Part shown: piece by piece, positions 53,633-58,700 of the stretch | Layout: each line of letters opens with the position of its first letter | How positions within the stretch are numbered: position 1 is the first letter of the stretch | Assembly: GCA_002951815.1 (NCBI GenBank) | Contig: CP019454.1 | Location: 2,418,001-2,482,000, forward strand | DNA: 64,000 nucleotides | Direction of reading: 5' to 3' | From: Sulfobacillus thermotolerans | GTDB taxonomy: Bacteria; Bacillota; Sulfobacillia; Sulfobacillales; Sulfobacillaceae | Made by a program: the position numbers and the translations under genes | Notes under the pieces: model-generated | Database searches by the model: none | The model's input: the letters and a program-made list of their open reading frames with translations, nothing else | What the model was told of the DNA's origin: nothing

Positions 53633-53823
53633 GGTCGGCTCCTTTCTGGCACGGAACGGGGTATTACTTGGTGATGTAATCATATCAAAATTCTGCGTAA
53701 AATTCTAACCACTCTCAAAGAGGCATTGGTCTGGCAGGAAGTGGAATGGCCTAACATGACGTCCCCGACACAAGACAATCCATGATATCATTATCTAAAC
53801 TTTATTGCGTTGGGAGGATTATC

Positions 53824-54729
53824 ATGCCATTGGCGTATTTTCATCACCGGTTTTTGCCGCTTGAAGAAGCTACCGTGTCCATTGCCACTCATGGACTGAA
53901 TTATGGCACGGGATGTTTTGAGGGCATTCGTGCCTACCACAATCGCGAACAGGACAAATTGTACATTTTTCGGTTGCGGGAACACTATGAGCGCTTTGCA
54001 CGGTCATGCCAAATTATGCGTATTGACCCAGGCCATAGTGTGGACGAGATGATGGAGCGCACGGTCCAGCTTCTGGCTCAACAAAACTTTCATGAAGATG
54101 TTTATATTAGGCCCTTGGCATTTAAAGCGGATCCCGTCATTAAAGTCACGTTGGAAGGCATTCGCGATGAATTTGGCGTGTTCGCGGTTCCTTTGGGAGA
54201 CTATCTACCGACTTCAGGCATTCATGTCGCGGTCTCGTCATGGCGCCGGCTAGAAGACAACGCCATTCCGTCGCGGGCTAAAGTTACGGGATCTTACGTC
54301 AATACCGCTTTGGCGGTCACCGATGCGCATCTGGCCGGATTTGATGATGCGATCTTTCTTACGGAGGCTGGTCATGTAGCTGAAGGGAGTGCCGCCAACT
54401 TTTTTATGGTCCGCGAGGGCATGTTAATTACGCCGGATATTAGTGAAAATATTTTGGAAGGCATTACCCGTCAAACCATTATGCAGCTCGCCCACGACTT
54501 GGGCATACCGGCGGCGAGTCGCACAATCGACCGATCGGAACTTTATGTTGCCGATGAATTATTTTTAGTGGGCACGGGTGTGCAAATTTCTCCCATTACG
54601 CGTATTGATCACCGGATGGTTGGAGACGGCACCATAGGCAAAATTACGCTGCAGTTGCAATCCTTGTACAACCAAGTGGTGCGTGGGGAAAGCGACGCCT
54701 ACCGGTCATGGTTGACCCCTATTGATTAA
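53824..54729 (+). CDS. ilvE: branched-chain amino acid aminotransferase
   Basis: Fold type IV PLP enzyme, 301 residues, transferring amino groups between Val/Leu/Ile and 2-oxoglutarate. The start MPLAYFHHRFLPLEEATVSIATHGLNYGTGCFEGIRAY, the PLP lysine in SRAKVTGSYVN near residue 157, AEGSAANFFMV and the late LFLVGTGVQISPITRID are typical of IlvE. GGGAGG lies seven bases before the ATG at 53824. Followed by a CoA-binding protein. Confidence 0.93.
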   Translation: MPLAYFHHRFLPLEEATVSIATHGLNYGTGCFEGIRAYHNREQDKLYIFRLREHYERFARSCQIMRIDPGHSVDEMMERTVQLLAQQNFHEDVYIRPLAFKADPVIKVTLEGIRDEFGVFAVPLGDYLPTSGIHVAVSSWRRLEDNAIPSRAKVTGSYVNTALAVTDAHLAGFDDAIFLTEAGHVAEGSAANFFMVREGMLITPDISENILEGITRQTIMQLAHDLGIPAASRTIDRSELYVADELFLVGTGVQISPITRIDHRMVGDGTIGKITLQLQSLYNQVVRGESDAYRSWLTPID

Positions 54730-54786
54730 CGCGACGTTTTGTCATCAAACAGAACGATCTATACGCCAAGAGGGGAGATGGTGAAA

Positions 54787-55188
54787 ATGACGGATGAAAT
54801 GATGCGCGAATTATTAGAGCAGAGCCATACCGTAGCCGTAGTCGGATTATCTCCCAAGCCCGACCGCGCCAGCTATCAGGTCGCTCAATATTTGCAAAAC
54901 CACGGATACCGCATCGTGCCGGTCTATCCGCGTGAAGAGACCATTTTAGGGGAGCGCGTTTATGCCCGGTTAGAAGATATTCCGTTTCCTGTAGATGTGG
55001 TCGATGTCTTTCGTAAAGCGGAAGATACGCCGCCTGTTGCCGAGAGTGCGGTGCGCATTGGTGCTAAGGCCTTATGGCTGCAATTGGGCATTGCCAACGA
55101 GGTCGCGCGCAGCATCGCGGAAGCCGCGGGCTTAGCGGTCGTGGAAGACCACTGTATAAAAATTGAACACCAAAGACTGTTGGGATAA
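54787..55188 (+). CDS. CoA-binding domain protein (YccU-like)
   Basis: 133-residue Rossmann-like protein of the CoA_binding_2 family: HTVAVVGLSPKPDRASYQVAQYLQNHGYRIVPVYP, VDVVDVFRKAEDTPPVAESAV, KALWLQLGIANEVA, VVEDHCIKIEHQRL. Family members bind CoA; role unknown. The ATG at 54787 is preferred (AGGGGAG nine bases upstream); ATGs at 54778 or 54739 are less likely. About 57 bp after ilvE. Confidence 0.88.
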   Translation: MTDEMMRELLEQSHTVAVVGLSPKPDRASYQVAQYLQNHGYRIVPVYPREETILGERVYARLEDIPFPVDVVDVFRKAEDTPPVAESAVRIGAKALWLQLGIANEVARSIAEAAGLAVVEDHCIKIEHQRLLG

Positions 55189-55216
55189 GAGACCGACTGC
55201 GGTCGAGTCTAGCGCC

Positions 55217-55311
55217 GAGAGGAGGAAGGTCTAATTTCTTGATGTGTGTCCCGGACGTGAAACCGTGGGCACCAAATCGCGCCATCAAGGCAAATTAGAC
55301 CGTGGACAATG
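55217..55311 (+). promoter_or_regulatory. hairpin-split ribosome-binding site of the following gene
   Basis: GAGAGGAGGAA (55217-55227) is followed by a long imperfect palindrome: GGTCTAATTT (55228-55237) with AAATTAGACC (55292-55301), continued by CTTGATG (55238-55244) with CATCAAG (55283-55289), i.e. 17 pairs with one 2-nt bulge. Folding leaves only 7 nt between the Shine-Dalgarno and the ATG at 55309. In the unfolded form the site would instead serve an 18-codon frame beginning at 55242 and stopping at 55298. Confidence 0.6.
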
Positions 55312-55968
55312 ACGGCAACGAAAAATCGTGAACGCACGATTGATGTGGTCCAAGAGATCTTAATGCGAGCAGAAGCATCGCCGGTAATCGAAGAGACCAT
55401 CGCATTTCCGGACGGCCAGGAGTGGTGGGCAGCGCCTAGGGCATTGTCACGCGATCTTGGCGCGTTCAAGGTAGGTGTGAGTCAACGGGGATCGATCGAG
55501 CGGGTCGGGTACCGACTGGACAAAGGGTTGAGCCCGGAAGCGCGAGCGTACAATGTGCCAACCCGCTTTATCATGTATGAGCCTTGGCCCTTTATGGCGC
55601 TAAGTCACGATGGGGAATTCCGTGAAACATTCTTTTCATTGGTCGGTCAATTGCCCGTGCATTTATGGGTATCGGTCACCAATGGTTTAGTGCCTGGCTT
55701 TACACCGCTCGTAGGACCCTTTAAACACGCGTTCCATTGGCGTATTCACGAACACGGCCAATTGGAATTGGCCGAGCCGGTCTTTGACATGGGGGTAGTG
55801 GGAGGCGTCGCGCAATCTACGTCAGTACCAGACGTTTTGCACTATCTCGAAACGCTGCCCGAGTGGCGTTGGTACTGGGTGTCGCTGTTCTTTGGACTGG
55901 AAGGCGATGATATTACCCGGCCGAATCTGGAGCGTTTGGTGACGCCCTTTTTGCGGTGGTGGCAATAA
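55309..55968 (+). CDS. protein of unknown function behind a hairpin-split RBS
   Basis: 219-residue soluble protein, no recognised family. It is rich in aromatic residues (EWWAAPRALS, MYEPWPFMAL, PEWRWYWVSLFFGLEG, PFLRWWQ) and has no membrane helix, cysteine pair or known catalytic motif. The ATG at 55309 has no Shine-Dalgarno in linear sequence within 20 nt; see the split site immediately upstream. A mannosyltransferase-propeller gene follows on the same strand after about 100 bp. Confidence 0.7.
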   Translation: MTATKNRERTIDVVQEILMRAEASPVIEETIAFPDGQEWWAAPRALSRDLGAFKVGVSQRGSIERVGYRLDKGLSPEARAYNVPTRFIMYEPWPFMALSHDGEFRETFFSLVGQLPVHLWVSVTNGLVPGFTPLVGPFKHAFHWRIHEHGQLELAEPVFDMGVVGGVAQSTSVPDVLHYLETLPEWRWYWVSLFFGLEGDDITRPNLERLVTPFLRWWQ

Positions 55969-56066: not shown

Positions 56067-58700
56067 GTGTTCTCGTCGCTTTCTTACGCCAAAGTTAATC
56101 ACAAGACAACAATTATTCCGAGCCTACGACCCCAGTGGGGAATTCTCGCCGCCATTGAGGTCGTGGCTTTTTTGGCCCGGTTCATTGGGTTAGGTGCGTA
56201 TCATGGACTCATTTATGATGAGTATTATTACGTGACGGCCGCTGATGTATTGCTTCACCGCAAGCCTCCCGTACTTGTTCCGCACCTAGTCTATGGCATT
56301 GATCCAAATTTGTTGTCGGCTCCACCGTTCGCTAAAGAAGTCATTGCAGCCTCGATTTGGCTCTTTGGCAATCACCCATGGGCTTGGCGGTTGCCTGGTG
56401 CCTTCCTAGGGTCGTTGGTGCCGCTTGTTATTTATTTGTTCGCGATGGCGCTTTTTGATAACCGCTGGACCGCTGGCATTGCTGCCGCATTGAGCGCGGT
56501 GGATGGCCTTATGGTCAGCACCAGTCGTGTGGCCTTGCTCGATTCCATTGCTTTTCCTTTCGTGGTTTTCAATTTATATTGGTTGTGGACCATTTGGGCA
56601 CGCATACGCCAAGACGCAAGTGTGTCCCGTGTCACCTTGTGGGGATTTGGGATCAGCTTGGGTTTGGGATTTTCGGCTAAGTGGATTGGAGCGCAAACGA
56701 TTTTAATGGCATGGATTGTGTTGGCATGGTCATGGCGCCATGTTCAGCGATCCCCACGCCGCTTATTGATCGCCTTGTCGGTGACCATTATTCCGTTGGT
56801 GACCTATTTTCTTACGTATGCCTACGCCTTTCCTAGTGGTTTTCATCAGACATGGTTGCCACGTAATGTGTTTGAGGCATGGGGCAAATTGCAGTGGCTG
56901 ATTCTCAAAAATATGTGGACGTTACGCTTTTACCACCCGTGGACAGCTAATGCGTGGACCTGGATGCTCTTACCTCGACCCACCGCGTATTTGTGGATCA
57001 CCCAAGCGCACGCCACGATTCGTCTCTTAGCCTTTTCCAATCCTTTGGTTATTTGGTTGGGATTGCTGGGACTGATGATGCTCGTGGTGCAAGATATTCG
57101 TCAGCACAGGACGCGGCCGGTGACTATCTTTTTCGTCGTGTGGCTCTTCGTCTTTTATGGCACATGGCTGTTAACGCCCCGGTCGAAGTTTAATTATTAT
57201 TTTTTGTCCATGATGCCTATGCTGATTATGGCCCTGGCGTCGGGGTTGATGGCCCTATGGCAGCTCCGTACACGGTTTGCCCGTGCGGGGTCTCTTCTGA
57301 TTATTGGGGCCTTAGGGATCTCTACGGCCTATCTTTTCCCCTTATGGGTGGGACTGGCCATGCCTACGGGATTCTACCATCGAATAATTTGGTCGCCCAC
57401 ATGGAATGCCAAGCCCAAACCCGTGTCCCATGTGCCCGTGCCTACCTCGGTATCATCTTTTGCGGCCTTTGGCCGTTGGTCCACGTCCGTGTCGGTACCC
57501 TCAACTTGGACGGCGTTTGAGGCGGGTGCCACGCATGACACGGCGTGGACATGGTCCAAGTCTGAGCCTTTAGCCACGGGGTATGTGTTACATCTGAATG
57601 GCGCAGTGGTGGATCAACCGGCTGTCGTGGGGCATGATGCCTACGCAGGATCCAATGGGGGCGCGGTGGTCGCGTGGAATTTGCAAACCGGCAAACGCTT
57701 GTGGTCTGATGTTGTTCCCAATATGGTGATGACCACACCGCTTGTGACCAAATCCCGCGTGATTGTGGGGTTAGGGAATAATGCATTTCGAGAATTTTCA
57801 TCACGGCAAGGATGGATTCGAGGCTCAGGAACAAATGGTGTCATGGCCTTGAGTCGAGCTACAGGGAAAGAACTGTGGTTCACCCCCACGCACGGTGAGG
57901 ACATGCCGACTCCGGTCATACAAGACGGCGTAGTCTATGAAGTGACGGGCGGGGGACGCCTAATTGCGCTAAATGCCAACAATGGGCACCTAATGTGGTC
58001 TCTGTTTTTAGGGGGCTTTGACAGCATGTCCTCGCCCGTTATCGTGGGTCATATTCTTTACGTTGCCACGAATGTTTATATGAAATCCTATCCTGCTACG
58101 CGTTCGACCGTGTGGGCCATTAATGTCGCGACACGCCACATTGGGTGGGCCAAAAATATTCCGGTGGCAAGCGGGCTGTCGGATTGCAGTCCGATCGTCG
58201 TAAAGGGGATATTGTATATTGCAGGCGTCCCTCGTATAGTGAATGTAACCGGAGGCCGAACATGGCTTGACAATCGATTGTTTGCACTCAATGCGCGTAG
58301 TGGGCGGATTTTGTGGTCCACGATTACCGGAGGCGGCTATTTAGGACTAGACCAAGAAGAAGAAGGGATTCCCTTTGTGCATGGGGGACTAGTCTTTATC
58401 GGAAACCCTGCGGCAAAGACCCTGCGGGCATACAATGCGGTCACGGGCCGTCTGGTCTGGGCACGGTCTTTGCCCGCGAGTCTGACAGCGAACCCCGTGG
58501 CCAGTGGTCCGTACTTATGGATAGGGCTGCATAATGGCGTGGTTATGGAAATGCAGGCCTCATCAGGGACGATTGTCCGTAGCCAACAACTGGGGCTTGG
58601 TCCGATTGGCCCGGCGGCGCCGATCATCTTCCCCCGTGGCTTTTTGATGGCGACGTTGTCCGGCAATATTGGTATGGTTCCGTTCGCGTTCGGGCAGTAA
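56067..58700 (+). CDS. protein O-mannosyltransferase-like enzyme fused to a PQQ-type beta-propeller
   Basis: 877-residue fusion. The N-terminal about 440 residues resemble GT39/ArnT-like transferases using polyprenyl-phosphate sugars: the acidic loop IYDEYYYVTAADVLL near residue 52, SAPPFAKEVIAASIWLFGNHPWAWRLP, SAVDGLMVSTSRVALLDSI and about 10 helices. Residues about 520-877 carry seven propeller repeats of the A-x-(N/D)-x2-(T/S)-G-x3-W form (AWNLQTGKRLW, ALSRATGKELW, ALNANNGHLMW, AINVATRHIGW, ALNARSGRILW, AYNAVTGRLVW, EMQASSGTIVR). The propeller would lie on the outer face. Start is a GTG at 56067 with AGAAGG close upstream and is uncertain. Probably glycosylates surface proteins or glycans. 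Confidence 0.85.
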   Translation: MFSSLSYAKVNHKTTIIPSLRPQWGILAAIEVVAFLARFIGLGAYHGLIYDEYYYVTAADVLLHRKPPVLVPHLVYGIDPNLLSAPPFAKEVIAASIWLFGNHPWAWRLPGAFLGSLVPLVIYLFAMALFDNRWTAGIAAALSAVDGLMVSTSRVALLDSIAFPFVVFNLYWLWTIWARIRQDASVSRVTLWGFGISLGLGFSAKWIGAQTILMAWIVLAWSWRHVQRSPRRLLIALSVTIIPLVTYFLTYAYAFPSGFHQTWLPRNVFEAWGKLQWLILKNMWTLRFYHPWTANAWTWMLLPRPTAYLWITQAHATIRLLAFSNPLVIWLGLLGLMMLVVQDIRQHRTRPVTIFFVVWLFVFYGTWLLTPRSKFNYYFLSMMPMLIMALASGLMALWQLRTRFARAGSLLIIGALGISTAYLFPLWVGLAMPTGFYHRIIWSPTWNAKPKPVSHVPVPTSVSSFAAFGRWSTSVSVPSTWTAFEAGATHDTAWTWSKSEPLATGYVLHLNGAVVDQPAVVGHDAYAGSNGGAVVAWNLQTGKRLWSDVVPNMVMTTPLVTKSRVIVGLGNNAFREFSSRQGWIRGSGTNGVMALSRATGKELWFTPTHGEDMPTPVIQDGVVYEVTGGGRLIALNANNGHLMWSLFLGGFDSMSSPVIVGHILYVATNVYMKSYPATRSTVWAINVATRHIGWAKNIPVASGLSDCSPIVVKGILYIAGVPRIVNVTGGRTWLDNRLFALNARSGRILWSTITGGGYLGLDQEEEGIPFVHGGLVFIGNPAAKTLRAYNAVTGRLVWARSLPASLTANPVASGPYLWIGLHNGVVMEMQASSGTIVRSQQLGLGPIGPAAPIIFPRGFLMATLSGNIGMVPFAFGQ

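Follow-up and report, generated by a model that had tools for sequence, protein, structure and literature searches.

A probable split ribosome-binding site with a distant Shine-Dalgarno sequence, conserved in the genus Sulfobacillus

Background

The Shine-Dalgarno (SD) sequence of bacterial genes usually lies 5–10 bases from the start codon, and bacterial gene finders as well as translation models assume it to lie no more than about 15 nt from the start codon. In thrS of Escherichia coli, too, the SD adjoins the start codon, and the distal part of the ribosome-binding site is an unstructured region. A structured domain separates the two ribosome-contact regions of this 'split' thrS site (PMC3936740). 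Another type of split translation initiation region is described for phage T4, where in gene 38 a hairpin cuts the SD-AUG spacing from 22 to 5 nt (PMC3014915). At the 26-25 junction the spacing of gene 25 is reduced from 27 to 11 nt, as supported by reporter and DMS data, and this arrangement is retained in close T-even phages but missing from more distant ones (PMC3014915). For both T4 genes, destabilisation of the structure leads to lower initiation (PMC3014915).

The Sulfobacillus element described here is like the sites of T4 genes 38 and 25 in every respect that can be computed. As in gene 38, a strong SD is too far from the AUG and an intervening structure is predicted to close the gap. 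Unlike the T4 sites it is cellular and occurs genus-wide, it has several helices in most species, and its length is three- to fivefold greater: the phage gene 38 site spans about 22 nt with one small hairpin, whereas 83–114 nt with a long stem or a three-way junction are found in Sulfobacillus. The gene 25 site, also short, from a phage and without a multi-helix domain, is experimentally supported, whereas the Sulfobacillus element is known from sequence and predicted folds. From thrS it is distinguished by the fact that the distal part is the SD itself. No cellular distal-SD case of such length was found in the open-licence literature. If our interpretation is true, a remote SD can be kept working by evolution over deep divergence, and the genus would offer eight natural bridges for asking how much RNA a 30S subunit can loop out.

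Results and discussion

Layout of the locus

The window, a stretch of 64,000 nt, belongs to the closed chromosome (3,317,203 bp) of Sulfobacillus thermotolerans. The site is located upstream of a gene for a protein of 219 aa and comprises, with its neighbourhood, the following features.

54739..55188, + strand: CoA-binding-domain gene (PF13380), upstream; gene order kept across the genus
55220..55225, + strand: distal SD, AGGAGG; read directly, present in 8 of 8 genus orthologues
55228..55244, + strand: 5' arm of the putative bridging stem, GGTCTAATTTCTTGATG; from the fold, the outer 5 bp being the genus-wide homologous helix P1
55242..55298, + strand: 18-codon upstream frame within the hairpin; judged fortuitous, without conservation in orthologues
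55246..55272, + strand: 9-pair inner hairpin topping the putative bridging stem; from the fold, varying among species
55283..55301, + strand: 3' arm of the putative bridging stem, CATCAAG-GC-AAATTAGACC; from the fold, with a 2-nt bulge, ending 7 nt 5' of the ATG
55309..55968, + strand: ORF of the 219-aa protein, its start codon served by the putative split site; N-terminus conserved from M1

The CoA-binding-domain gene and the 219-aa gene probably form one operon; an aminotransferase class IV gene (53782–54729) lies upstream of the former. Downstream of the 219-aa ORF follows an 877-aa mannosyltransferase-like/PQQ-repeat ORF (56067–58700), in which a PMT-type membrane glycosyltransferase domain and a PQQ/BamB-like beta-propeller are fused in a single protein. 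Within the coding region of the 219-aa gene, about 15 nt past the start codon, there is a 7-bp inverted repeat, AATCGTG-AACG-CACGATT (55324–55341).

An earlier note on this DNA had described an AGGAGG, a near-continuous 17-pair stem and the ATG at 55309, and direct reading and folding confirm this arrangement. The predicted fold has 17 pairs with a single 2-nt bulge (55228–55244 with 55283–55301), plus the inner 9-bp hairpin; AA lies between AGGAGG and the stem, and GTGGACA between the stem and the ATG (55309–55311). Some positions had to be adjusted: AGGAGG is present but ends at 55225, the value of 55227 counting also the following AA, and the linear SD-ATG spacing is 83 nt and not 81. For the folded state 7 nt had been given, which is the 3' side only; the spacing is 9 nt (2 + 7), within the functional range. 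The 18-codon frame said to compete in the unfolded state does exist. The calculated anti-SD duplex amounts to -12.0 kcal/mol for the distal SD versus -3.0 kcal/mol for the 20 nt preceding the ATG.

Of 2000 dinucleotide shuffles, not one yielded a stem equally well anchored to both SD and ATG (p ~0.0005). Folded alone, the SD-ATG interval has z = -3.2, and the modest stability of the whole 121-nt stretch (z = -1.4) is due to the restriction of strong pairing to this interval. The frequency of such sites in the same genome was taken from a 464-kb sample, in which a scan for SD, stem of at least 7 bp and ATG returned 7 matches. The window site was the best of these (10 bp) and the only match to combine a stem of 8 bp or more with the lack of a long in-frame extension. 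The ends of shuffled RNAs of equal length also come close, with a median contour of ~10; as shuffles perform equally well, contour distance by itself was not accepted as a test, and since random RNAs bring their ends near, only precise anchoring and covariation are informative. An initial bridging statistic, requiring wholly unpaired SD and ATG regions and no downstream pairing, gave low values in several species owing to weak pairing of the last Gs of the SD; folds of the isolated interval were used in its place.

Conservation within the genus

The window stem is not a chance palindrome. The gene is present in all eight genomes of the genus set (L002–L009, L002 being the window), and in each of them a strong SD (AGGAGG, or at least GGAGG) is found 83–114 nt 5' of the conserved start, too distant for direct use. 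An adequate SD near the start is lacking: the distal SD has calculated anti-SD duplex energies between -11.9 and -13.0 kcal/mol, and the last 20 nt ahead of the ATG reach +0.1 to -6.4 kcal/mol, with a weak local SD in L008 (-5.6) and L009 (-6.4). The start context reads ATGATGG in seven species and ATGACGG in the window. These close relatives thus all retain the arrangement, with proteins whose identity to that of the window goes down to 37%.

A longer N-terminus running through the element, or a clear start elsewhere, would have spoken against the site as the earlier note had pointed out; both were looked for in the genus orthologues and not found. Similarity of the proteins starts at M1, and the upstream frame either hits a stop within the element or has no conserved sequence, therefore a longer N-terminus does not exist. 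Nor is there a conserved upstream ORF among the eight orthologues.

The product belongs to no Pfam or NCBIfam family according to protein family searches. Its AlphaFold model has a mean pLDDT of 87, for which Foldseek returned no significant match. VIA-align gave the DUF1054 proteins 2a8e (Z 8.8) and 3mqz (Z 7.5) as well as the T4 MotA DNA-binding domain (Z 8.0); these modelled resemblances are weak, near the level that the tool calls a 'common arrangement'.

Predicted structure and covariation of helix P1

In all eight genomes a closing helix can begin 0–2 nt past the SD and finish 5–7 nt before the start codon. A long stem closes the domain in L002 and L003, while L004, L005, L006 and L008 combine the closing helix P1 with two hairpins in a three-way junction. 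The lowest-energy fold of L009 is a three-way junction, too, but with an alternative closing helix. With P1 closed, the predicted structure cuts the effective spacing to a functional range: 9 nt in L002 and L003, 5 nt in L004, L006 and L008, 8 nt in L005 and L007, and 7 nt in L009, L007 and L009 being ambiguous. In these latter two, the 5' arm (CGTCTC or TGTCTC) can pair with either of two adjacent copies, GAGACG and AGACG. Pairing with AGACG gives the 7–8 nt just mentioned, the competing pairing with GAGACG about 14–15 nt, and the computed energies are close (AGACG versus GAGACG: -19.6 vs -21.1 in L007; -28.1 vs -29.0 in L009). These alternative pairings may reflect a switch or an artefact of prediction.

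Predicted pairing probability near both interval ends is 0.90–1.00 in seven of the eight species. The stability of the interval is unusual in several species (z = -7.0, -7.0, -3.2 and -2.5), reaching the extreme of about -7 in L004 and L006; it is unremarkable in L005 (-0.7), L007 (+0.6) and L009 (-1.0).

P1 is a homologous 5-bp helix throughout the genus, xGyCT past the SD pairing with AGrCx' before the start, whereas the inner sequence turns over between species and the hairpins P2 and P3 vary freely. As MAFFT misaligned the inner hairpins, covariation was judged on P1 and not by a genus-wide covariance model. The alignment used for this consists of SD, P1 arms and start, with the arms joined by hand, which favours structure; in it 95% of the cells are paired, compared to 28–60% in slid registers. 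Two of the five pairs show changes on both sides (G-C to C-G and U-A to C-G), and the covariation score was reached by one out of 500 shuffles. The P1 core hardly varies within the six-species clade, which therefore shows no covariation. Between L002 and L003, ten stem pairs include three double compensations, one pair that is now G-U and one that is broken. The comparison of orthologue upstream regions proposed earlier has thus revealed a predicted closing helix, P1, which can form in 8 of 8 genus genomes and covaries across the genus.

Interpretation and competing explanations

The element is probably a split ribosome-binding site of the type of T4 genes 38 and 25. A 30S subunit would bind the strong distal AGGAGG, while the intervening 83–114 nt would form a single compact RNA domain with P1 as its closing helix; looped out at P1, this domain would present the AUG at ordinary spacing. 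As the domain starts 0–2 nt past the SD and ends 5–7 nt before the AUG, the predicted effective spacing is approximately 5–9 nt, and it could be up to ~15 nt in the alternative fold of two species. The far SD is conserved, there is little or no local SD, the arms are anchored and covary, and neither a conserved upstream ORF nor read-through occurs. Two points we infer from the predicted structures: that the RNA adopts this fold in vivo, and that initiation relies on it. The parallel to T4 gene 38, in which a hairpin brings a distant SD to the start, had already been drawn in the earlier note, and the orthologous sequences argue strongly for it.

Structured standby sites have been described (PMC3936740), and a 30S subunit held at the distal SD might slide to the AUG without any bridging. 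This is quite improbable, as such a mechanism predicts neither the precise anchoring of P1 to SD and AUG nor the covariation of P1. We consider it very unlikely that the SD serves a short upstream ORF, a leader peptide, with the main gene translated by coupling. The 18-codon frame of the window does end shortly before the start, as does a GTG frame of 21 codons in L006, but a start codon within the required range is missing from L004, L005 and L007, and the frames in the remaining species differ in start, length and sequence. A palindrome acting at the DNA level, an operator or mobile repeat that is located there by chance, would agree with the near-perfect inverted repeat of the window. The genome search for further copies, however, gave a single one in S. 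thermotolerans, which is against a mobile element, other species have a three-way junction instead of a palindrome, and the arms vary by species yet remain complementary and anchored to SD and ATG. This explanation is therefore highly improbable, and the recent palindromic insertion once considered is not supported, given the single copy and an arrangement common to all eight species of the genus. Hardly credible is an RNA thermosensor, also proposed before, in which heat would open the stem and alter translation. Only the position of the stem next to the site speaks for it. Folding across temperatures, as had been suggested, predicts the window stem shut at 25–65 °C; its P1 pairing drops from 0.98 (37 °C) to 0.97 (55 °C) and 0.94 (65 °C). 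In six of the eight species a value of at least 0.74 is retained at 65 °C. Melting in the physiological range that would gate SD or AUG is thus not predicted. Moreover, the SD is outside the stem and not sequestered, therefore the stem does not hide the site.

A different question is whether bridging is combined with regulation, the domain being a translational control element whose P1 is opened or remodelled by a ligand, an sRNA or a protein, either the gene's own product or another one. In favour of this are the retention of the domain in 8 of 8 species despite sequence turnover, the probable second split at the same gene in another clade (see below), the mutually exclusive pairings predicted in L007 and L009, and the weak resemblance of the product to the MotA DNA-binding fold (Z 8.0). 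On the other hand, no conserved loop or aptamer-like motif exists, P2 and P3 being free to vary, the element is present in a single copy per genome, and the covariance models of Rfam 15 gave 0 matches within 55000–55500 at E up to 10. Regulation on top of bridging appears rather unlikely to us on balance. Still less likely is the full combination of an obligatory 83–114 nt multi-helix bridge, a regulatory switch for one gene and a second origin in another genus. By the Rfam 15 search a known riboswitch or cis-regulatory RNA family was discarded as a candidate, and so was a leaderless promoter, for which a weak scan found no promoter-like match near 55200–55310.

Distribution in the family

The split site appears to be specific for this gene. 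The motif AGGAGG-WYGTC-N(52-80)-GACGRYTAA occurs once in each of six congeneric genomes (L004–L009), always at the orthologue of the 219-aa gene; the 34 family genomes contain no other instance, and a search with the reversed control pattern gave no match. In most other genera of the family the same gene has ordinary SD spacing. In g3, g7, g9, g10 and g11 the orthologues carry an SD-like motif at the usual distance; that of L010 is strong (AGGAGG, 9 nt), and weaker ones occur in others.

The g4 clade (L017, L019) is without a local SD. Here a hairpin of 51 or 52 nt (z -2.3 to -2.5) separates AGGGAGGGA or AAAGGAGA from the start, at these places:

L017, 1345–1405, gene-oriented: candidate split site of the g4 clade
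L019 and L020, upstream of the start at 1396, gene-oriented: candidate split site of the g4 clade

This clade thus seems to have its own, shorter split site, which we regard as a lead; the case comprises two distinct sequences, the L020 protein being the same as that of L019. Superimposed on the protein tree, the split character requires two changes, which implies either two origins or more than one loss. The proteins of L019 (G010, genus g4) and L020 (G032, genus g6) are identical and their DNA is nearly so, which suggests contamination or misplacement of one of the two assemblies.
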